From NCBI RefSeq assembly GCF_019039215.1, contig NZ_JAHNZZ010000001.1:1092006-1156005 (forward strand): a DNA stretch of 64,000 bases. Reading direction: 5' to 3'. The stretch comes from Bacillus sp. FJAT-29790. GTDB lineage: Bacteria; Bacillota; Bacilli; Bacillales; Cytobacillaceae. The position numbers were made by a program, and so were the translations under genes. The notes beneath the pieces were generated by a model, which was not told the DNA's origin, made no database searches, and worked only from the letters and a program-made list of their open reading frames with translations. This document shows, piece after piece, positions 45,111 to 56,265 of the stretch (position 1 is the first letter of the stretch; every line of letters begins with the position of its first letter).

Positions 45111-45300
45111 TTAGTATCAATATATTAAACTAACTAGTTAACAAAGGGCAAACCATAATCTTTATACTGAGCAAAATGACTGACGGCTGCTAAATATAAT
45201 AGGAATTAGTAAAACCTGATGAAGAGAAGCTAAATTCTTTTCAATTTTAAAAAAATAATATCAATATTGACTTAGATCATTGCTGTGTTTTGCTGTCCAC

Positions 45301-45342
45301 TTTTGCAAAAATGAAAATATAGTAAGATTTTCAAAAGCAAAA
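45301..45342. promoter_or_regulatory. Dyad upstream of the sigma-54 promoter, candidate activator site
   Basis: TTTTGC (45301-45306) and TGAAAAT (45312-45318) are mirrored by ATTTTCA (45327-45333) and GCAAAA (45337-45342). The dyad centre is about 50 bp upstream of the -24 element. An enhancer-binding activator is encoded three genes downstream. Confidence 0.5.
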
Positions 45343-45368
45343 CTGTAGGTTTTATAAGGTTAGCAGAC

Positions 45369-45385
45369 TTGGCACGACTTTTGCA
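45369..45385 (+). promoter_or_regulatory. Sigma-54 (-24/-12) promoter of the sulfur amino-acid module
   Basis: TTGGCACGACTTTTGCA matches TGGCAC-N5-TTGCA exactly, with the GG and GC doublets separated by ten bases. It lies 70 bp before the PLP lyase start. The adjacent activator gene with a sigma-54 interaction module supports function. Confidence 0.9.
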
Positions 45386-45454
45386 ATGTAAATAAAACAA
45401 GAGGAAAACCAAATAGGTATTCGTATTACCTAAAATTAGGAGGATTCAACAATA

Positions 45455-46615
45455 ATGAACTATTCATCAAAACTAGTAAAAGTAAATAAGGATCCAGGGC
45501 ATGGCTCACACATCTCCCCTGTATATATGACTTCAACATTTGTTTTCGATAACGCAGAAGTAGGAGCAAAACGCTTCGCAGGAGAAGATCAAGGGTTCAT
45601 GTATTCTCGCCTAGGAAATCCTAATGTACGAGAGCTTGAAGAAAAGGTAGCGGCATTGGAATTTGGCGAAGGCTGTTTGGCATTCTCATCTGGGATGGCT
45701 GCTATTACTGGTTGCCTTCTTGGGATTTTACAGGCAGGGGATCACGTTGTTGCTCACACAGCGTTGTATGGAGCGACACACGCATTTCTTAGCAAAACGG
45801 TTAAGAAATTTGGAATTGATGTCACATTCGTACCGTTTAAGACAGGAGAAGAGCTTGAACCACACATGACAGATCGAACGAAGGTGGTCTACTTTGAAAC
45901 CCCATCCAATCCTACGCTTTCCTTAGTGGATATGAAGAGTGTTGCGACAATTGCCAGGCAGAAGGGAGCTTTGACCGTTGTTGATAATACGTTTTTGTCT
46001 CCATATTTGCAAAATCCGATATTATGCGGAATTGATATCGTCGTCCACAGCGCAACAAAATATTTATCCGGTCATGGATATCTAATTGGCGGACTAGTGA
46101 TATCGCACAAGGAAATTATTGAGCCAATGAGAAAAGAAGTTCAGAAGACGATGGGAGCAAATTTGTCCCCTATGGATGCCTGGCTTCTTTGTCAAGGGAT
46201 ACGTACATTACACATTCGCATGGATCGCTCACAAGAAAATGCCCAGATTTTGGCTGAGCGTTTGGAAAAGCATATAGCAATCGAGAAGGTTTATTTTCCA
46301 GGTCTAGCAAGCTTCGAAGATAAAAATATTATGGAAAAACAAATGAAAGGCCCAGGAGCAATGATTTCTTTTGTCCTGAAGGGGGGATATGAAGCAGGTG
46401 TTAAACTAATGAATTCAGTAAAACTATGTACTTTAGCTGTTTCTCTGGGAGACGTAGGTTCACTCATTCAACACCCAGCTTCGATGACACATGCGATTAT
46501 CCCAAAAGAAGAAAGGGAAAAAGCAGGTCTCTATGATGGACTTGTTCGATTTTCGGTCGGAATTGAAGATGTAGAAGATATATGGAAGGATCTTGAGATG
46601 GCATTGGCAAAATAG
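45455..46615 (+). CDS. Cys/Met-metabolism PLP enzyme (methionine gamma-lyase / cystathionine lyase type)
   Basis: 386 aa; ATG after TTAGGAGG. Fold-type-I gamma-family signatures: YSRLGNPNVRELEEKVAALE, FSSGMAAI, LYGATHAF, ETPSNPTLSLVD, VVDNTFLSPYLQNP and the PLP lysine in HSATKYLSGHGY (Lys 202). Overall style resembles methionine gamma-lyase (releases methanethiol, ammonia and 2-oxobutyrate), but the position corresponding to the specificity Cys of Pseudomonas MGL (LYGCT) is Ala 107, so cystathionine or homocysteine lyase activity is possible. It directly follows the sigma-54 promoter and begins a sulfur amino-acid module. Confidence 0.82.
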   Translation: MNYSSKLVKVNKDPGHGSHISPVYMTSTFVFDNAEVGAKRFAGEDQGFMYSRLGNPNVRELEEKVAALEFGEGCLAFSSGMAAITGCLLGILQAGDHVVAHTALYGATHAFLSKTVKKFGIDVTFVPFKTGEELEPHMTDRTKVVYFETPSNPTLSLVDMKSVATIARQKGALTVVDNTFLSPYLQNPILCGIDIVVHSATKYLSGHGYLIGGLVISHKEIIEPMRKEVQKTMGANLSPMDAWLLCQGIRTLHIRMDRSQENAQILAERLEKHIAIEKVYFPGLASFEDKNIMEKQMKGPGAMISFVLKGGYEAGVKLMNSVKLCTLAVSLGDVGSLIQHPASMTHAIIPKEEREKAGLYDGLVRFSVGIEDVEDIWKDLEMALAK

Positions 46616-46731
46616 CATTGACATCAGAAAGTTTTTGTCCATTTCAATTCGCTTTCATAGTTTAAAAGGTAGCTAAGCTCTTGCTAATAACTATGAACGA
46701 GTATAAATAAAGAACAATGGAGGTTATGGAA

Positions 46732-47913
46732 ATGAAATATGATTTCGACCAAATGATTAACCGCGAAAATACAGCTTGTGAAAAGTGGGATGGTCTAAAA
46801 GACCGCTTTGGTGTAAGCGAGGCGATCCCGATGTGGGTTGCGGATATGGATTTTAAATCGCCTCCTCCCGTCATAGAAGCTTTAAGTCAAAGAGTACAGC
46901 ACGGAATATTTGGCTATACAAATAGACCTGATTCATATTTTGAGGCTATTATTGATTGGGGTAAAAGGAGACATCATTGGTCAATCGATAAAAAATGGAT
47001 CGCTCATAGTCCAGGCATACTCCCAGCCCTATCCTCGATTATCAATTCATTTTCACAACAAGGGGATAAAGTCATTATCCAAACGCCTGTTTATCATCCG
47101 TTCTCTCAGATTATTAAGTCACTAGGACGGGAATCTGTCAGCAACCCACTTAAACTAGAGAATAGCCGATATATGATAGATATAGAGGATTTGAAAGAAA
47201 AAATCGATCCCACTGTTAAAATCTTAGTGCTTTGCAACCCGCATAATCCGGTTGGGAGAGTTTGGAGCGAAGAAGAGTTAACGATGTTGGGCCAAATTTG
47301 CATTGAAAACAACATTCTAGTCGTTTCGGACGAGATTCACTGTGACCTTGTTTTCAGAGGAAACAAACATATTCCGTTTGCTTCCCTGTCTGAAGAGTTT
47401 GCCAATCTTACTTTTACCTGCATAGCAGCTAGCAAAACATTTAATATAGCGGGTCTGCAAACTTCTAGCATCATTATTCCAAACCAAAAATTGCGAGATA
47501 TTTTTAACAAGGCAATAAATAATCAGTGTATTGGTTCTCCTAACACGTTTGGAATGGTCGCAGCTGAGAGTGCCTATCGCTACGGTGAAGAATGGTTAGA
47601 GGAGCTGATCGATTATTTACAAGGAAACTTAGATTTTCTTATTTGTTACTTTCAAAAGAACATTCCGCAAATTAAAGTGATTCGGCCAGAAAGTACGTTT
47701 CTAGTGTGGTTAGATTGCCGGGAATTAGGGCTTGCCAAAAATGAACTTGATGAGCTAATGCTCAGCCAGGCGAAAGTTGCAATGAATGAAGGGTATATTT
47801 TTGGTGTCGATGGTGAAGGGTTTATGCGAATGAATATCGGCTGTTCTCGCTCATTATTAGAAAAATGTTTACGTCAAATAGATGGTGCCGTTAATTTTTT
47901 GTGCAGAGCATAG
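46732..47913 (+). CDS. MalY/PatB-family cystathionine beta-lyase / aminotransferase
   Basis: 393 aa from ATG 46732; the frame opens at 46717 but its second codon is part of the GGAGGT ribosome site. MalY/PatB landmarks: DFDQMINRENTACEKWD, IPMWVADMDFKSPPPV, GIFGYTNRP, LCNPHNPVGRVW, VSDEIHCDLVF, the PLP lysine in AASKTFNIAGLQ and a C-terminal MNIGCSRSLLEKCL. PatB-type enzymes cleave C-S bonds of cystathionine or cystine. Next to a gamma-family lyase and an amino-acid ABC transporter it fits use of imported sulfur amino acids. Confidence 0.87.
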   Translation: MKYDFDQMINRENTACEKWDGLKDRFGVSEAIPMWVADMDFKSPPPVIEALSQRVQHGIFGYTNRPDSYFEAIIDWGKRRHHWSIDKKWIAHSPGILPALSSIINSFSQQGDKVIIQTPVYHPFSQIIKSLGRESVSNPLKLENSRYMIDIEDLKEKIDPTVKILVLCNPHNPVGRVWSEEELTMLGQICIENNILVVSDEIHCDLVFRGNKHIPFASLSEEFANLTFTCIAASKTFNIAGLQTSSIIIPNQKLRDIFNKAINNQCIGSPNTFGMVAAESAYRYGEEWLEELIDYLQGNLDFLICYFQKNIPQIKVIRPESTFLVWLDCRELGLAKNELDELMLSQAKVAMNEGYIFGVDGEGFMRMNIGCSRSLLEKCLRQIDGAVNFLCRA

Positions 47914-48047
47914 AAACCAATACTAAATAAATTATCTGAATAATAAAAATATATATAAAAATTTAAATATTTTTAATAGTTAAATCAACATAAGTGAAGT
48001 ATAATAAATAAAATTGACTAACGTAAAGAATGAAACGGGAGATCAGT

Positions 48048-49493
48048 ATGGTAAACTTTTCCGGTATACAGGAATTTATTCAAACATTCTCAGAAAATAT
48101 GTCTGAAGTCCTTCGTCTTGATGTAACAATACTTAACGACAAAGGCTTGCGAATCAGTGGAACCGGTGCCTATCTAAATAGGGTTGGAGAGTTTGCACCT
48201 GATGGGTCCTTATTAAGAATGATTATGGAGACAGGAAAGCCTGCAATGATCCATGATGTGATTAAAAATAAATCACAATGCATGAATTGTCAATTTTTCA
48301 CCCAGTGCAAAGTTTCGGCAACGATAGGTTTTCCAATAATGATCCGGAGTAGACCAGTAGGGGTAATTGGCATCATGGGTTTTACCTCTGAGCAGAAAGA
48401 GAGGATGATTAGAAATTCCGAGATGTTGATAAGATTTTTGCAGCATCAGAGTTCCCTGCTAGAAAACAAACTGTTATTGCTAGATTACAATCAAGAATTA
48501 GAATGCAAAGTGTACGAGGATTTTCCGACCTTAGAAAGGAAAGTTTCTTTTGAAAATATTATCGGCCAATATTCAGGACTGCAAGATCTAATTAAAAAGG
48601 CTAGACGTGTGACCAATAGCCCCTCAACAATTTTAATCATGGGTGAAAGCGGCACAGGTAAAGAATTGCTGGCACAAGCCATTCATTATGAAAGTAACCG
48701 AGGGAAATACCCTTTTGTTGCAATCAATTGTGCAGCTATTCCTGAAAATCTTTTGGAAAGCGAGTTGTTTGGTTATGAAGGAGGTGCATTCACAGGATCA
48801 AGACGTGATGGAAATATTGGGAAATTTGAATATGCACACAAGGGGACTATATTTCTAGACGAAATAGGCGATATGCCTTTATCGTTACAGCCTAAATTAT
48901 TAAGGGTTTTGCAGGAGAGGTCCATAGAACGAATTGGCGGAAAAAAAACCATTCCTATCAATGTAAGAGTGATTGCAGCTACCCATAGAAATTTAGAGGA
49001 ACTGGTAGAGAATGGAGCATTTCGAGAAGATTTATATTACCGTCTTAATGTCATACCGTTAAATACGAAACCACTAAGGGAACGCCGCGATGACATTGTG
49101 TTATTTCTTAACTACTTTATTAGAAAACATTGCAGGCTTTTGGGCAGAAACGATTTGCGTATCGATCCGGTACTAGAGCAATGGCTGATTCAATATGAAT
49201 GGCCGGGAAACATTAGACAGCTCGAAAACGCTGTGGAATACATGGTCAATTTCGCTGAATCAAATACCATTGAATTTCACGATTTACCGGATTATCTAAA
49301 TAAACAGGAGAATTTCGCCGGTTTGAAAAGAGGATTAAGTTTAGAACAAATGATAGCAGAATATGAAAAGAATATTCTACAAACCTTATATTTTGCGGAA
49401 CCATATCGAAATGATAAAGAAAAGATTTCGCAAGAATTACAAATTAGTCTTTCTACATTATATAGGAAGCTAGATAAATACCAATTATATTAA
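48048..49493 (+). CDS. Sigma-54-dependent activator with cysteine-containing sensor domain
   Basis: 481 aa from ATG 48048 (GGGAGAT upstream). Residues 1-145 are a sensor region with C78-x2-C81-x5-C87, suited to a metal, Fe-S or redox switch. The AAA+ module has GESGTGKE (199-206), the sigma-54 contact loop GAFTGS (246-251; the classical form is GAFTGA), GTIFLDEIGD (Walker B) and a WPGNIRQLENAVEY end. A Fis-type HTH closes the protein (QISLSTLYRKLDKY). It presumably activates the -24/-12 promoter at 45369. Not a two-component regulator: no receiver Asp domain. Confidence 0.9.
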   Translation: MVNFSGIQEFIQTFSENMSEVLRLDVTILNDKGLRISGTGAYLNRVGEFAPDGSLLRMIMETGKPAMIHDVIKNKSQCMNCQFFTQCKVSATIGFPIMIRSRPVGVIGIMGFTSEQKERMIRNSEMLIRFLQHQSSLLENKLLLLDYNQELECKVYEDFPTLERKVSFENIIGQYSGLQDLIKKARRVTNSPSTILIMGESGTGKELLAQAIHYESNRGKYPFVAINCAAIPENLLESELFGYEGGAFTGSRRDGNIGKFEYAHKGTIFLDEIGDMPLSLQPKLLRVLQERSIERIGGKKTIPINVRVIAATHRNLEELVENGAFREDLYYRLNVIPLNTKPLRERRDDIVLFLNYFIRKHCRLLGRNDLRIDPVLEQWLIQYEWPGNIRQLENAVEYMVNFAESNTIEFHDLPDYLNKQENFAGLKRGLSLEQMIAEYEKNILQTLYFAEPYRNDKEKISQELQISLSTLYRKLDKYQLY

Positions 49494-49525
49494 AATTTTC
49501 CGAAAAAAAAAGGGGGAATATGATC

Positions 49526-50350
49526 ATGAAAAAGAGGTTTAAATTTCTTGCATTCTCGTTGATGGCTACACTTGCGTTAACAGCCTGTGGAAGTACACAA
49601 AATCAAACAACGACTGAACCTGAAAAACCTGCAGCTCCTGAGAGTAAAACGTTGCTCGAGCAAATTCAGGCAGATGGCGTCGTCAAAATTGGAGCAGAAG
49701 GAACGTATGCGCCCTTTAGCTTCCATGATGCATCAGGGAAATTAACTGGCTTTGATACTGAACTCGCAGAAGAAATTGCGAGTAGACTAGGTGTAAAAGC
49801 GGAAATCATCGAAACCCCATGGGATGGAATTTTTGCCGGACTTGATTCGAAGCGATTCGATATGATTGTTTGTCAAGTAGGCATACGTCCCGACAGACAG
49901 GAAAAATACGATTTCTCTGAGCCGACTAATGTGTCAAAACCTTACTTAATTATTCATAATGACAATGACACGATTAAATCATTTGAGGATTTAAAAGGAA
50001 AAAAATCAGCTCAGTCACTAACGAGTATGTTTAAAGATATGGCTGAATCCAACGGTGCTGAAATCGTAGGAGTCGAAGGATTTAATCAAGCGATTGATTT
50101 ATTAATTTCAAAACGTGTGGATGCGACGATAAATGATGGATTGTCCTACCTCGACTTCAAAAAGCAACAACCTGATGCACCTCTTAAAGTTGCAGCAGAG
50201 CTTGATGAACCTACGAAAATGGGTGTTATGTTTAGAAAAGGAAATGAAGAACTCGTAGAGGCAGTCAATAAAGCACTCGCAGATATGAAGGAAGATGGAA
50301 AGTATTTAAGCATCTCAGAAAAATATTTTGAAACTGATGTTTCAAAATAA
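49526..50350 (+). CDS. Amino-acid ABC transporter substrate-binding lipoprotein (cystine type)
   Basis: 274 aa from ATG 49526, nine bases after AGGGGG; an ATG six bases earlier is too close. Lipoprotein signal MKKRFKFLAFSLMATLALTA with lipidated Cys 21, an acidic linker, then a family-3 binding domain (VVKIGAEGTYAPFSFHD, GFDTELAEEIASRLG, FDMIVCQVGIRPDRQEKYDFSEP). Anchored outside the membrane, it delivers an amino acid to the permease encoded next. The surrounding sulfur amino-acid lyases favour cystine or methionine over a generic polar amino acid. Confidence 0.87.
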   Translation: MKKRFKFLAFSLMATLALTACGSTQNQTTTEPEKPAAPESKTLLEQIQADGVVKIGAEGTYAPFSFHDASGKLTGFDTELAEEIASRLGVKAEIIETPWDGIFAGLDSKRFDMIVCQVGIRPDRQEKYDFSEPTNVSKPYLIIHNDNDTIKSFEDLKGKKSAQSLTSMFKDMAESNGAEIVGVEGFNQAIDLLISKRVDATINDGLSYLDFKKQQPDAPLKVAAELDEPTKMGVMFRKGNEELVEAVNKALADMKEDGKYLSISEKYFETDVSK

Positions 50351-50364
50351 AAAGGGGTGTTTGA

Positions 50365-51048
50365 ATGTTTGCAGATGAAAGGATGCAGCGAATCATTGAC
50401 ATTATAATAAGCTCCTTTTTACCGATGTTAAAAGCAGGGATTGCTTTTACCGTCCCATTGACACTGATTTCCTTTTTCCTCGGGCTCATTCTTGCTCTGC
50501 TTACGGCAATGGCACGCATCTCGGGAATTAAAGTTCTCGATGCCATTGCAAGATTTTATGTATGGGTAATCAGGGGAACACCGCTGCTTGTTCAGTTGTT
50601 TATTATTTTCTATGGGCTCCCAAGCATCGGGGTAACAATCGGTCCGCTTCCATCGGCCATTATCGGTTTTACGATTAGTGTCGGTGCCTATAATTCGGAG
50701 GTTATTCGAGCAGCCATCCTTTCCATTCCAAAAGGACAATGGGAAGCTGGCTACTCAATCGGAATGAGCTATCGTCAAGCATTAAGAAGAATTATTCTTC
50801 CCCAAGCAACCCGGGTCTCCATCCCACCATTGTCAAATAGTTTTATAAGTTTAGTAAAGGACACGTCACTGGCCGCTACTATAACTGTTACCGAAATGTT
50901 TAGAGTAGCCCAGCAAATTACAGCAACAACCTATGAACCATTAGTACTATATTGTCTTGCAGGATTTATTTATTTAATTTTCAGCACAGTTCTTTCAAAC
51001 GCCCAAGGACGTATGGAAAAACGATTTGATCGTTATGTGGCGAGCTAA
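50365..51048 (+). CDS. Amino-acid ABC transporter permease
   Basis: 227 aa; ATG after AAAGGGG, 14 bp after the binding protein. HisM/GlnP-type permease with about five helices and the cytoplasmic EAA loop EAGYSIGMSYRQALRRIILPQA (~residues 130-151), which docks to the ATPase. RGTPLLVQLFIIFYGLP (~71-87) is the family signature. It functions as a homodimer or with itself, since only one permease gene is present. Confidence 0.9.
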   Translation: MFADERMQRIIDIIISSFLPMLKAGIAFTVPLTLISFFLGLILALLTAMARISGIKVLDAIARFYVWVIRGTPLLVQLFIIFYGLPSIGVTIGPLPSAIIGFTISVGAYNSEVIRAAILSIPKGQWEAGYSIGMSYRQALRRIILPQATRVSIPPLSNSFISLVKDTSLAATITVTEMFRVAQQITATTYEPLVLYCLAGFIYLIFSTVLSNAQGRMEKRFDRYVAS

Positions 51049-51068
51049 TTTGATTGGAGGATATCCCG

Positions 51069-51812
51069 GTGATTGAGATAAAGAACCTGCATAAGCAGTT
51101 TGGAGAAACTGAGGTGTTAAAAGGAATCGATCTGATTATTGAGGAAGGAAATACAGTCTGTATTATTGGACCTTCGGGATCAGGAAAAACAACTTTATTA
51201 CGCTGTTTGAATTTACTTGAAGTTCCTACAAACGGAATGATTAAACTTGGAAATTTCTCTTTAGCGTTTCAGGATAAAAAACAAATTCCAAAAGATACTG
51301 TCATTAAGTTCCGGCAACAAACAGGGATGGTTTTTCAGGGGTATAATTTGTTTCCTCATATGACTGCGTTGGAAAATGTGATGGAAGGTCTTGTGATTAT
51401 TCGTAAGCAGGGCAAGGAACTTGCACATGCGAAAGCTCTTCACTTACTTGAAAAGGTGGGTTTAAAGGAAAGGGCAAACCATTACCCATTCCAGCTTTCG
51501 GGCGGACAGCAACAGCGCGTAGGAATCGCCCGTGCAATGGCGATGGAACCAAAAGTCATACTTTTTGATGAACCTACTTCCGCGTTAGATCCTGAGTTAG
51601 TAGGAGAAGTTCTGAAGGTTATGAAAGAACTGGCTAAAGAAGGTATGACAATGGTTGTTGTCACTCATGAAATGAACTTTGCTCGTGAGGCAGCTGATAA
51701 GGTTGTATTCATTGACAAAGGGATAATTGTCGAAGAAGGATCACCACAACAAATTTTTGAACATACCCAGCATGAACGTACATTACAATTTTTAAATAAA
51801 CTTTGTTCATAA
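51069..51812 (+). CDS. Amino-acid ABC transporter ATP-binding protein
   Basis: 247 aa from GTG 51069, seven bases after GGAGGA; the TTG at 51054 precedes the ribosome site. Polar-amino-acid ABC ATPase: [18 protein letters not shown] (Walker A), Q-loop [18 protein letters not shown], signature [15 protein letters not shown], Walker [13 protein letters not shown] and switch His in VVTHEMNFA. Completes a three-gene importer of the TcyJKLMN/GlnHPQ kind. Ends the sigma-54 module; terminator 115 bp downstream. Confidence 0.93.
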
Positions 51813-51926: not shown

Positions 51927-51967
51927 AAAAACTGTATGTTCCATTTAATGGGGCTACAGTTTTTTTT
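51927..51967 (+). terminator. Terminator after the ABC transporter operon
   Basis: AAAACTGTA (51927-51935) / TACAGTTTTTTT with a 19-base loop. The 425-bp gap 51813-52237 also contains the cre-like site and the regulatory region at 52090-52187. Confidence 0.78.
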
Positions 51968-52237: not shown

Positions 52238-53335
52238 TTGGAAAAGGCTGATGTAAGAGTAAGTGAAAAACTTAGTGAAGCGTACACTCTGCCATCGTGG
52301 CTCTACACAAAACCTGAGGTATTGGAAGTTGAGAAAAGAGAAATCTTTAGCAAAACATGGCAATATGCCGGTCATGTTAGTCAATTCAAGAAGCCTGGTG
52401 ATTACATTACAACGGAAGTAGCCGATCGTCCCGTAATCATTTCATATGGACAAGATGGAGAAATCCGCGCATTTTTTAATGTTTGCACACACCGGGCTGC
52501 AAAACTAGCTGAAGGAGAAGGAAATAAAGCAGTCTTCTCTTGTCCCTATCATGCATGGACTTTTCGATTAGATGGATCACTTCATAGGGCTCCTAATATG
52601 AATGGAGTTGAAAATTTCGACCATAATGACTTTTGTTTGAAAAAAGTAAAATTGGAGGTATTTGAATCTTTCATTTTTATTAATTTAGATCCGAATGCAC
52701 CTTCCATGTCTAGTCAGTTTCCCGAATTATTTCAACATGTTAAAAAACATGACCTTGGAAGTTTTAAAAGAACACGAGTAAGAGAAACAATCTGCAAGTC
52801 TAACTGGAAAATTGGAATCGATAACTACTTGGAATGTGACCATTGCTCGATTGTTCATAAAGTACTCGTTTCCGTCCTAGACCTGAATCAATACGAGATG
52901 AAAATGTTTAAAAATTATTCCTATCAGGGTACACCCCTAAAAGGAATGACTGGGGACTTTGGCCTCGGACAGGGTGGAAGATATTACTGGCTTTACCCAA
53001 ATACTTGGTTTTCCTTTGATCCTGGTCCTGCAAATCTTTCAATCCATCAATCTATTCCTATCGATCATAAAACTACGAAGTATGTATATACCACTTTCTT
53101 TAAAACAGATGAAATTTCAAAAGAAGAAGAAGAGCTAATGGCAATTGATGAGTTAGTAAGAAAAGAGGATCTCGACATTTGTGAGGTCGTTCAGAAAGGT
53201 ATAGAAACTGGTGCCTATACTCAAGGCAGGTTTTCGCTTACAGAAAATTGTGTTCACCAATTTCATTTGCTTCTGCAAAAAGATTTAGAATCTCTACTTC
53301 CCCTTCAAAAAGTAGATACAACCACTGCATTGTAA
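52238..53335 (+). CDS. Rieske [2Fe-2S] non-heme iron oxygenase, alpha subunit
   Basis: 365 aa; TTG start eight bases after AGGAGGT. Rieske ligands C83-x-H85 and C102-x2-H105 (NVCTHRAAKL, FSCPYHAWTF). The mononuclear-iron site has DNYLECDHCSIVH with His 202 and His 207; the bridging Asp is probably 195. Family members hydroxylate aromatics or oxidatively demethylate betaines, carnitine and stachydrine. With an amine oxidase, amino-acid permease and semialdehyde dehydrogenase next to it, a quaternary or secondary amine is more likely than an aromatic. No reductase gene is adjacent. Confidence 0.87.
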   Translation: MEKADVRVSEKLSEAYTLPSWLYTKPEVLEVEKREIFSKTWQYAGHVSQFKKPGDYITTEVADRPVIISYGQDGEIRAFFNVCTHRAAKLAEGEGNKAVFSCPYHAWTFRLDGSLHRAPNMNGVENFDHNDFCLKKVKLEVFESFIFINLDPNAPSMSSQFPELFQHVKKHDLGSFKRTRVRETICKSNWKIGIDNYLECDHCSIVHKVLVSVLDLNQYEMKMFKNYSYQGTPLKGMTGDFGLGQGGRYYWLYPNTWFSFDPGPANLSIHQSIPIDHKTTKYVYTTFFKTDEISKEEEELMAIDELVRKEDLDICEVVQKGIETGAYTQGRFSLTENCVHQFHLLLQKDLESLLPLQKVDTTTAL

Positions 53336-53369
53336 GAGATAGAATACGATTTAGTCAATATCACCGTTG

Positions 53370-53383
53370 TGTAAGCGCTTCCG
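53370..53383. promoter_or_regulatory. Weaker cre-like site before the permease gene
   Basis: TGTAAGCGCTTCCG matches the cre core TGTAANCGNT, with two mismatches in the right half. It lies 42 bp before the permease start, where bound CcpA would affect expression. Confidence 0.35.
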
Positions 53384-53424
53384 GGACTTTAAAGAACATT
53401 ACTTTGGAAGATAGGTGAATTTAT

Positions 53425-54858
53425 ATGGCAGTTACTCAAGAGAACCAGCCGCAATTAAGGCGGACGATGAAGAGCAGACATTTATTCATGATGTCACTGG
53501 GAGGTATCATAGGAACAGGCTTATTTTTAGGTTCGGGTTATGCAATCGGTGAAGCGGGTCCTGCTGGGGCGATATTCGCCTATCTAATCGGTGGGCTGCT
53601 CATGTATCTAGCCATGGTATGTTTAGGAGAATTGTCTGTATTCATGCCCGTTTCCGGATCCTTCCAAGCTCATGCGACAAAATTTATTGGTCCAGCTACC
53701 GGTTTTGTTGTGGGATGGATTTACTGGTTAAGCTGGGCTCTATATGTAGGACTTGAGTTCGTAGCCGCAGGCGTTTTAATGAAAAGATGGTTCCCTGATG
53801 TTCCTGTCTGGATTTGGTGTACGATATTTATTATCTTACTTTTCTCGATCAATTCACTTGCCACAAGAAGTTTTGCTGAAACAGAGTATTGGTTTGCAGG
53901 GATTAAGGTGGTTGCTGTCATTCTCTTTATCATTATCGGTTTTGGTGCAATGTTTGGCTTAATAAGTATGGAAAGTGAGCCAGCTCCGTATTTGTCAAAC
54001 TTTATCGGTGACGGTTTGCTTCCTGCTGGGATGATTGGTGTGTTTATATCGATGATGACTGTTATTTATGCTTTCCAAGGATCAGAAATTATGGGTGTAG
54101 CTGCAGGCGAGACGGAAGAACCCGAAAAAAATATCCCAAAAGCAATCCGCAATATTGTTTTCCGTATACTCGTATTCTATGTTTTAGCTATTTTTGTCTT
54201 ATCCGCTCTTGTCCCATGGAAAGATGCAGGTGTGTTGGAAAGTCCGTTTGTAACTGTTTTTGATATGGTTGGGATTCCTTATGCAGCTGATATTATGAAC
54301 TTTGTGATTTTAACCGCCATCCTTTCAGTTGGAAATACCGGTTTATTTGCCTGCACACGTATATTGTATTCTCTTTCTAAAAGTGGGATGGCACCAGCCG
54401 TCTTTGGAAAATTAAACAAACGAGCTGTTCCAACCAACGCATTATTAGTCACATTGGCTTTTGCTCTACTTTCCTTGCTTACAAGTTTTGTAGCCGAAGA
54501 TACTCTCTTTGTTGTATTACTTTCCATAAGTGGAATCGGAGGAACACTGACATGGATGGCAATCGCCATGGCACAAATCGGATTTCGTAGACAATACATT
54601 AAGAATGGGGGGAAATTAGAAGATCTAAAATTCAAAGTTCGTCTCTATCCGTTTATTCCGATTCTGTGTATCGTCATGTGCTTGTTTATCTTTGCTTTCA
54701 CAGCATTTGACCCAACTCAACGCACATCACTCTATTGGGGATTTGGATTTGTTGTAGCATGCTACGTATATTATTACTTCCTGCATTCAAGGAGAAAGGC
54801 TGACTTGCCTATCAGCATTGATGAGCAAAATAATCCAGCCGTAGAGGAAGAAATCTAA
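53425..54858 (+). CDS. APC-family amino-acid permease (GabP-like)
   Basis: 477 aa; ATG preceded by GGAAGATAGGTG. Twelve hydrophobic helices. The N-terminal RRTMKSRHLFMMSLGGIIGT with GLFLGSGYAIGEAGPAGA is the AAT-subfamily signature; FQGSEIMGVAAGETEEPEKNIP is the second. Imports an amino acid, GABA or similar by proton symport. Placed between a Rieske oxygenase and an amine oxidase, it is likely the uptake step for their substrate or for a product such as GABA. Confidence 0.88.
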   Translation: MAVTQENQPQLRRTMKSRHLFMMSLGGIIGTGLFLGSGYAIGEAGPAGAIFAYLIGGLLMYLAMVCLGELSVFMPVSGSFQAHATKFIGPATGFVVGWIYWLSWALYVGLEFVAAGVLMKRWFPDVPVWIWCTIFIILLFSINSLATRSFAETEYWFAGIKVVAVILFIIIGFGAMFGLISMESEPAPYLSNFIGDGLLPAGMIGVFISMMTVIYAFQGSEIMGVAAGETEEPEKNIPKAIRNIVFRILVFYVLAIFVLSALVPWKDAGVLESPFVTVFDMVGIPYAADIMNFVILTAILSVGNTGLFACTRILYSLSKSGMAPAVFGKLNKRAVPTNALLVTLAFALLSLLTSFVAEDTLFVVLLSISGIGGTLTWMAIAMAQIGFRRQYIKNGGKLEDLKFKVRLYPFIPILCIVMCLFIFAFTAFDPTQRTSLYWGFGFVVACYVYYYFLHSRRKADLPISIDEQNNPAVEEEI

Positions 54859-54924
54859 ACATTTATAAACTGCAGTTCCAATTACGTGGAGCTGTAGTTA
54901 ATTTTATGTAAGGGGGAAAACCAA

Positions 54925-56265
54925 GTGGAGAAAACAGAAAATTTTGACGTTATTATCGTGGGAGGAGGATTTTCTGGATTAACTGCAGCAAGAGAGCTCA
55001 GGTTATTAGGCCACAAAGTTCTCGTTTTGGAGGCACGCGATCGACTAGGTGGCCGTACGTGGATAGATAACCGTTTGGGATTCGATCTTGAAATGGGGGG
55101 AACTTATGTTCATTGGCATCAGCCTCATGTTTGGACTGAAATCACTAGGTATGGTTTGGAAATTACGTCGGGACCAAAATCAGAAAAGGTTTATTGGATC
55201 TCTGATGATAAATCTTTTTCAGCAACTACCGAAGAGTTTAAACTTAAACTTCGAAATACAGTTGAAAGATTGATGAGTGAAAGCAATAGATATATGCCAC
55301 TACCGTACGAACCTTTGAGTTCTCCTTTAATAAAAGAAATGGATGGAGTTACCGCCGATCAGTTTATGAAAGATTTTGGCCTGACAAAAGAGGAATATGA
55401 TATTTTACACGGCTGGGTTGCTTCCGATTTTTGCGGAGCACCAGAGGAAGGAGCTATTACCCAAATTTTCAGGTGGTGGGTGTTCTCGCAAGGAAATTGG
55501 GATACCCATAGTGCCAGCGTATCTGGATACAGGTTAAAACAAGGGACGAAAGCGTTGGTAGAAGCAATTGCTGCCGATGCAGATGCAGCGATTAAACTTT
55601 CAGCCATTGTAAACAAGATCAAACATGAAGGAAATACTGTACAAGTCATGACAACAGAGGGCTCAATTTTTGCGGGAAAAGCTGTGATTGTCACAGTTCC
55701 ACTGACAACACTGCAAAAAATTGATTTCCAACCGGCACTATCTCTAGAAAAACAAGCTTCTTCCAGGGAAGGACAAACTTCAAAAGGAGTAAAGATTTGG
55801 GCACGCGTGAAAGGAGAATTAGAGCCGTTTGATGCTCTAGCACCTGGAAATTATCCGTTAAACTCTGTTCATTTAGATCGTTTTATTGATGGCGACAGTA
55901 TCCTGGTAGGCTTCGGGCCAAGTGCCACATTGCTCGATCCCAATGATAAAGTCGCAGTTGAAAGGGCATTGCAGCATTGGATTCCAGGCATAGAAGTAAT
56001 TGAGAGCACAGGCCATGACTGGGTAAACGATGAATTTTCTCAAGAAACATGGCCGATGTTGAAGCCAAATCAGTTAACTTCTTATCATCAGGAATGGAAT
56101 ACCCCAGAAAATGCTGTATTCCTTGCAGGAACTACGTATGCAAACGGCTGGGCAGGCTTTATTGATGGGGCCATTGAAAGCGGAATAACTGTAAGCAGGA
56201 GAGTTCACAAATTTATAACAGGCGATTTTACATTTAGAAAGAAACATTTTGTTAATAACAGTTGA
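54925..56265 (+). CDS. Flavin-containing monoamine oxidase-type amine oxidase
   Basis: 446 aa; GTG start with AAGGGGG eight bases before. FAD site VIIVGGGFSGLTAARELRLLG (residues ~9-29), then LEARDRLGGRTW (~36-47) and the C-terminal AGTTYANGWAGFIDGAIESG that closes the flavin site. FCGAPEEGAITQIF and PWNFP-free middle are typical of bacterial MAO/putrescine oxidases. Oxidises a primary amine to an aldehyde with hydrogen peroxide. The aldehyde dehydrogenase downstream (56545) would take the product, as in putrescine to GABA to succinate routes. Confidence 0.83.
   Translation: MEKTENFDVIIVGGGFSGLTAARELRLLGHKVLVLEARDRLGGRTWIDNRLGFDLEMGGTYVHWHQPHVWTEITRYGLEITSGPKSEKVYWISDDKSFSATTEEFKLKLRNTVERLMSESNRYMPLPYEPLSSPLIKEMDGVTADQFMKDFGLTKEEYDILHGWVASDFCGAPEEGAITQIFRWWVFSQGNWDTHSASVSGYRLKQGTKALVEAIAADADAAIKLSAIVNKIKHEGNTVQVMTTEGSIFAGKAVIVTVPLTTLQKIDFQPALSLEKQASSREGQTSKGVKIWARVKGELEPFDALAPGNYPLNSVHLDRFIDGDSILVGFGPSATLLDPNDKVAVERALQHWIPGIEVIESTGHDWVNDEFSQETWPMLKPNQLTSYHQEWNTPENAVFLAGTTYANGWAGFIDGAIESGITVSRRVHKFITGDFTFRKKHFVNNS

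Follow-up and report, generated by a model that had tools for sequence, protein, structure and literature searches.

Organization of the operon

The window analyzed here is a 64,000-nucleotide stretch of the Bacillus sp. FJAT-29790 genome (contig NZ_JAHNZZ010000001.1). Judged from its sequence, the segment at 45369–51812 is a sulfur amino acid operon of six genes in the same direction, with a sigma-54 promoter and a gene for a sigma-54 activator (Table 1). An earlier reading of this DNA, made without database searches (the sequence-only reading), had claimed a perfect sigma-54 promoter, and the element found is indeed the sole exact -24/-12 match in the window. The exact pattern TTGGCAC-N5-TTGCW occurs at 14 sites in the 4.55-Mb genome, compared with 1 for the reversed control pattern, and a GAFTGA-type activator gene was present in 8 of the 12 stretches examined around the 13 other sites. 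For sigma-54 itself, the host genome was found to have one gene.

Table 1. Features of the operon and its control region (window positions)
Feature	Position	Strand	Basis or remark
Distal predicted activator site 1, TCTTTTCAATTTTAAAAAAA, 12.7 bits	45236..45255	.	133 bp before the -24 element; site model, promoter alignment
Distal predicted activator site 2, degenerate, left half TAATATCAATATTG retained	45256..45275	.	Promoter alignment
Proximal predicted activator site 3, CTTTTGCAAAAATGAAAATA, 16.1 bits	45300..45319	.	69 bp before the -24 element; site model
Sigma-54 promoter, TTGGCACGACTTTTGCA	45369..45385	+	Exact pattern match
Methionine-gamma-lyase-like C-S lyase	45455..46615	+	Best-model score, residue comparison
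PatB-family C-S lyase	46717..47913 (alternative start 46732)	+	TIGR04350
Probable CdsR-type sigma-54 activator (GAF-fold sensor, AAA+, Fis-type helix-turn-helix)	48048..49493 (open reading frame from 48030)	+	Domain models, alignment, tree
Cystine-type substrate-binding protein	49520..50350	+	NCBIfam best model, structure comparison
Cystine-type ABC permease	50365..51048	+	NCBIfam best model
Cystine-type ABC ATPase	51054..51812 (TTG opens the frame; GTG 51069 possible)	+	NCBIfam best model
Terminator-like hairpin followed by a T-run, weak	51938..51954	+	7 hairpins in the region, 5.2 expected in shuffles

Two C-S lyases had been named in the sequence-only reading. The PatB-family protein stands as such, passing the TIGR04350 subfamily cut-off (517.3 bits; cut-off, 340), while the first enzyme falls under the equivalog cut-off for methionine gamma-lyase (MGL) and is called MGL-like. 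It carries Ala at the position of Cys115 in the Citrobacter enzyme, so other substrates may suit it better than methionine. This lyase is 91–95% identical to its counterparts in four related loci (L009 and L061–L063), and the activators of those loci are just 59–78% identical to that of the window. The one-permease amino acid importer was borne out: it consists of one binding protein, one permease, and one ATPase, and the best NCBIfam model is a cystine-importer part for 3/3. The structure noted for comparison is 2yln, which we take to be the gonococcal cystine receptor.

The third gene product has the AAA+ sigma-54 activator domain and the C-x2-C-x5-C motif that had been described for it. The order is sensor, AAA+ domain (GESGTGKE, FLDE, and a GAFTGS loop), and Fis-type helix-turn-helix (HTH); the GAF and HTH matches were under the Pfam cut-offs (HTH_8, 19.9 bits; cut-off, 22). 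The open reading frame begins at ATG 48030, and a second ATG at 48048 gives about 481 amino acids. Orthologous activators are 477–491 amino acids long and mostly start near the second ATG, and ATG 48048 is therefore favored as the probable start. The three cysteines are residues 84/87/93 when counted from 48030 and 78/81/87, as originally numbered, when counted from 48048. In 11 of the 16 activators of the window's clade this loop is GAFTGS or GSFTGS, and a motif ending in S was present in 0 of 46 other activators listed.

Predicted operator sites upstream of the promoter

To describe the activator sites, 36 sigma-54 promoters were gathered without removal of near-copies: 2 of the host genome and 34 of loci where orthologous activators lie. 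A palindromic site model was trained on 21 of these, all from other genomes; both host promoters, the orthologous MGL promoters, all TauE promoters but one, and unassigned promoters were omitted, and three promoters of distant MGL-like genes were kept. The consensus of the model is TTTTCTCAAATTTGAGAAAA. The proximal site of the window gave the top score among 63981 window positions, and its score was matched by 0/2000 dinucleotide shuffles of the upstream region. Two more places in the window exceeded 14 bits (22986 and 51962), and the 21 other sigma-54 promoters of the host genome reached at most 11.2 bits. A scan of 319427 host-genome bases (overlaps included) returned the window site and 8 other places of at least 13 bits, located in L091, L079, L095 (three), and L135 (three). 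The three in L095 (G000:C1, near 466 kb) are strong activator-like sites at 1740, 2274, and 2749, within about 1 kb.

All 26 pairs of sites (at least 8.5 bits) lying 12–32 bp apart were spaced 20–22 bp, one pair in each of 26 of the 36 promoters, the spacing being no part of the site model and the 36 promoters including near-copies. A site starting 59–69 bp before the -24 element was found in 11/36 promoters. In the window, the right half of distal site 2 has been removed by an 11-bp deletion (about one helical turn) relative to the promoter of a host D-cysteine desulfhydrase-type gene, described below, and to homologous promoters; the site scores less than 5 bits, compared with 10.5 bits for the undeleted copy in that host promoter. 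The sites at 45236 and, in its damaged form, 45256 had been overlooked in the sequence-only reading.

That reading had instead drawn a 42-bp dyad at 45301–45342, which was rejected as an operator in that form. The complementarity of its arms was equaled by 216 of 2000 base shuffles and by 1208 of 21320 window 42-mers, which is chance-level symmetry, and its right arm is unconserved in the aligned homologous promoters. Its left arm falls on proximal site 3, the top-scoring activator-site match of the window.

A second likely target in the genome and gene sets in relatives

A second sigma-54 promoter with the same control region lies 135 kb from the operon (G000:C1:1271933, L133), and 135 of 165 bases are identical between the two control regions. 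The gene behind it is of the D-cysteine desulfhydrase/D-cysteate lyase type. The best solved structure for this enzyme and its L061 counterpart is a D-cysteine desulfhydrase; restricting the name to that activity was rejected since the D-cysteate sulfo-lyase model also passed (488.6 bits; cut-off, 450), and both names were kept. Taken alone, the sites of this promoter are weaker, the best score being reached in 16/2000 shuffles and the sum of the best two in 3/2000. The control region of the MGL gene in the L063 relative matches that of the window at 162 of 176 bases. In L061, the gene order is MGL, aminotransferase, D-cysteine desulfhydrase, and activator, and for this reason the host D-cysteine desulfhydrase gene may have come with an L061-like cluster.

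Orthologous activators are patchy in the host family, sensor matches of at least 48% identity being present in 6 of the 192 other genomes searched. In a sample of the order, matches of at least 41% were found in 7/397 genomes, 7/7 in other families. A full-length activator search of named genomes gave 18 loci, and the whole-length orthologue was solely that of an uncultured Brevibacillus (L009); in the other 17, the match begins at residue 140 or later. The gene sets around the orthologous activators vary, with sigma-54 promoters in front: they include MGL, PatB, the importer, D-cysteine desulfhydrase, RidA-like proteins (named by eye), thioredoxin reductase, sulfide:quinone oxidoreductase (SQR)-like proteins, a metallo-beta-lactamase (MBL)-rhodanese fusion, and TauE. 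The thioredoxin reductase, SQR-like, MBL-rhodanese, and TauE genes of the relatives have the same promoter and predicted sites. The nearest solved structures to the MBL-rhodanese fusion are 3tp9 and 3r2u, the latter from S. aureus and presumably CstB. A search of the host genome (98.68% complete) for a close SQR gave none, the best match being 26% over 120 residues; persulfide dioxygenase (PDO) was not sought there. Among the matches listed in the open-access literature, there was no account of such a regulon in Bacilli, which does not prove its absence in print.

Relationship to cdsB-linked activators

A sensor match at or below 1e-8 was found in 80 of 398 genomes of the phylum. Seven loci were taken from the top ten non-host rows of this search, all from the same phylum and from other classes. 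A cdsB-like gene (PF03313) lies close to the activator in six of them; the seventh breaks off within the activator gene at a contig end. Four cysteines are invariant among the six cdsB-like proteins, as many as are reported for cysteine desulfidase, and the last three are 41 and 7 alignment columns apart, compared with the reported 40 and 7 residues. In a quick tree of 51 activators (Shimodaira–Hasegawa-like approximate likelihood ratio test, SH-aLRT, only; no bootstrap), the 16 activators of the window's clade fall inside a side of 24 (SH-aLRT 99) together with five of the six cdsB-linked ones; we call these 24 CdsR-like. The opposite side holds the activators that neighbor diaminopropionate ammonia-lyase and putrescine aminotransferase genes. 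Predicted sites precede cdsB in L171 (17.7 bits), L174 (19.4 bits), and L176 (15.3 bits), with 0/1000 shuffles as good in each case, and in 4/6 loci the top-scoring site overall is located at most 300 bp before cdsB. The host has a cdsB-like gene of its own (424 amino acids; L179, G000:C1:2678408), and the stretch examined upstream of it contains no -24/-12 match or strong site. The host activator is therefore regarded as a CdsR relative with other targets, and not as a cdsB regulator here.

Comparison with known systems

The sequence-only reading had set this gene set apart from the SigL regulon of B. subtilis, a contrast that overlooks closer precedents: CdsR/cdsB of C. difficile and the predicted MdeR/mdeA of Clostridiales (PMC5767170, PMC6615313). 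Without SigL or CdsR, most of the activity of the C. difficile cdsB promoter is lost; cysteine induces this promoter, whereas Na2S does not (PMC5767170). The likeness lies in a sigma-54 activator adjoining a cysteine-degrading gene with a -24/-12 promoter (PMC5767170, PMC6615313), and the inverted repeats upstream of cdsB, at -179 to -190 and -200 to -211, are 21 bp apart (PMC5767170), like the 20–22 bp site pairs here. The targets differ, being pyridoxal phosphate (PLP)-dependent C-S lyases, an importer, and a D-cysteine desulfhydrase-type enzyme instead of a [4Fe-4S] desulfidase. The predicted MdeR/mdeA-metT system of Clostridiales also combines a sigma-54 activator with a methionine gamma-lyase gene. 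Its reported site, TGT-N10-12-ACA, is unlike TTTTCTCAAATTTGAGAAAA, its transporter is different, and the operon as listed has no cysteine genes (PMC6615313).

The sensor domain

The sensor is predicted to adopt a GAF fold (predicted local distance difference test score 82, from 22 sequences), and its matches include the GAF domains of the activators Nlh2 and NifA; residues 85–90, in the cysteine loop, are a low-confidence part of the predicted structure. The proposal that the cysteine motif is a sensor specific to this gene set did not survive comparison with other activators. C-x2-C-x5-C is present in 47 of the 51 compared, comprising 24/24 CdsR-like and 23/27 others, and in a narrower count it was present in 15 of 16 readable loci (of 29). 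Because the motif is also found in activators beside non-sulfur genes, it cannot alone mean cysteine sensing, and it was ruled out as a mark of sulfur or cysteine sensors by this spread. A host paralogue (L057:6019-7776) carries it as well; this gene adjoins allantoate-amidohydrolase-like and diaminopropionate ammonia-lyase genes, and the locus resembles the DioR group of Clostridiales (PMC6615313).

In the likeliest view, the three cysteines belong to the family as a whole and have a structural, metal, or Fe-S role. By analogy, a metal or Fe-S role is possible, as proposed for VnfA: VnfA and AnfA of Azotobacter are sigma-54 activators with conserved GAF-domain cysteines and, in VnfA, a possible [3Fe-4S] cluster, the likeness of the cysteines being one of description, spacing aside, and the targets being nitrogenase (PMC9542535). 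A segment directly after the third cysteine, AT[ILM][GA]xP, is present in 21 of the 24 CdsR-like activators and 0 of the 27 others (counted post hoc). It is a better candidate than the three cysteines for the source of ligand specificity.

A probable CdsR-type regulon for cysteine use

Taken together, we consider it likely that this operon forms the center of a CdsR-type sigma-54 regulon through which cystine and cysteine are used as a carbon, nitrogen, and sulfur source; S-substituted cysteines are probably used as well, and L-cysteine is most likely the inducer. The genes, the promoters, the shared operator, and the kinship to cdsB-linked activators are present in the sequences compared, and from them we infer the inducer, the DNA binding of the activator, and the substrates of the enzymes. 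The circuit of sigma-54 and activator proposed in the sequence-only reading has thus gained a second likely target in the genome and an operator shared across genomes.

In the mechanism that we propose, a plentiful ligand, most likely L-cysteine, would cause the GAF domain of the activator to free the AAA+ domain. The activator, placed at TTTTCTCAAATTTGAGAAAA-like palindromes 133 and 69 bp before the -24 element, would then promote opening by sigma-54 RNA polymerase. The products would import cystine through the ABC system and cleave C-S bonds with the MGL-like enzyme, PatB, and, from the second promoter, the D-cysteine desulfhydrase/D-cysteate lyase. In relatives, thioredoxin reductase could reduce cystine, and the SQR-like, MBL-rhodanese, and TauE proteins would clear the sulfide produced.

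Several points weigh against this reading. The first lyase reaches 516.3 bits with the methionine gamma-lyase model TIGR01328, under the equivalog cut-off of 549.7; all three importer proteins score under equivalog cut-offs; and the SQR-like proteins of relatives, named by their best NCBIfam model, score 253 and 257 bits against a cut-off of 525. The activator loop is GAFTGS instead of GAFTGA. The window promoter has no intact 20–22 bp site pair, because the 11-bp deletion took half of the middle site. On the side of the cdsB-linked loci, the L175 activator lies outside the CdsR-like side of the tree, and the tree has long-branch warnings; the sites before cdsB are weak in L172, L173, and L175 (37, 70, and 49 per 1000 shuffles as good, respectively); and the -24/-12 match is imperfect in 5/6 cdsB promoters, L172 being the exception. 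C. difficile CdsR, likened here by description, has 591 amino acids and a PAS domain, compared with about 481 amino acids and one GAF-type sensor in the window, and in a later C. difficile study, with TY medium, control of cdsB by SigL was not observed (PMC7438776).

More tentatively, and as a proposal that may well prove wrong, the regulator could be a clostridial cysteine-response activator re-tooled for aerobic life, recognizing cysteine through AT[ILM][GA]xP and not through the three cysteines, with cystine import and PLP C-S lyases as targets in place of the [4Fe-4S] desulfidase, joined in relatives by a sulfide-removal set. If this is true, the breakdown of sulfur amino acids and the disposal of the toxic product would be switched together, and in the relatives sulfide removal is apparently wired to the same switch. 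The CdsR-type regulon proposed here predicts sigma-54 control of cysteine breakdown outside Clostridia, with a named operator and, elsewhere in the genome, another likely target. It further suggests a way in which an operator may persist across classes although the enzymes under the regulator are exchanged, and it points to a clade-specific segment, as distinct from the cysteine motif shared by the family, as the probable determinant of ligand specificity.

Alternative explanations

The activator might instead use its three cysteines to sense sulfide or sulfane sulfur (persulfide, polysulfide) and be the Gram-positive equivalent of FisR; we regard this as unlikely. FisR of Cupriavidus and Acinetobacter is a sigma-54 activator of SQR-PDO-TauE genes, resembling the larger gene sets of the relatives (PMC7315123, PMC8469610), and sulfane sulfur modifies it (PMC8469610); the SQR-like, MBL-rhodanese, and TauE genes of relatives carry the same sites, and all 24 CdsR-like activators have the three cysteines. 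However, the motif is nearly as common outside the CdsR-like group (23/27), in some cases beside non-sulfur genes, the host genome keeps the regulator though it has no close SQR, and kin in other classes adjoin cdsB-like genes, with C. difficile cdsB not being induced by Na2S. FisR was likened by gene sets, sensors aside: the A. baumannii FisR operon, as described, has no C-S lyase or cystine importer, and the regulatory cysteines of Cupriavidus FisR are absent from A. baumannii FisR (PMC7315123, PMC8469610).

We give a similarly low probability to a regulon for S-substituted cysteines or methionine and not for cystine, in which S-alkyl-cysteine-type compounds would be imported and the lyases would free a thiol. 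S-substituted cysteines are substrates of PatB-family enzymes. The MGL-like enzyme has Ala at the Cys115 position, and in C. novyi methionine gamma-lyase the C115H change improves beta-elimination with S-substituted cysteine sulfoxides (PMC9569779). Nevertheless, the company of D-cysteine desulfhydrase-type, SQR-like, MBL-rhodanese, TauE, and cdsB genes points to free cysteine and sulfide, the best importer models are cystine systems, and the MdeR site differs from the site here (PMC6615313). It is very improbable that the dyad serves as the operator and that the domain with the three cysteines is a dedicated sensor of cysteine, metal, or redox state: the left arm of the dyad does coincide with a predicted site and the cysteines are real, but the symmetry of the dyad does not exceed chance, its right arm is unconserved, and the cysteine motif is family-wide.

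Other features of the region

A scan for sigma-70 promoters was uninformative, giving 25 where 23.0 were expected. On the 3' side of the operon, at 52238–56265, there are Rieske-type oxygenase, amino acid permease, and amine-oxidase-like genes, the names being based on visual inspection of the translations.

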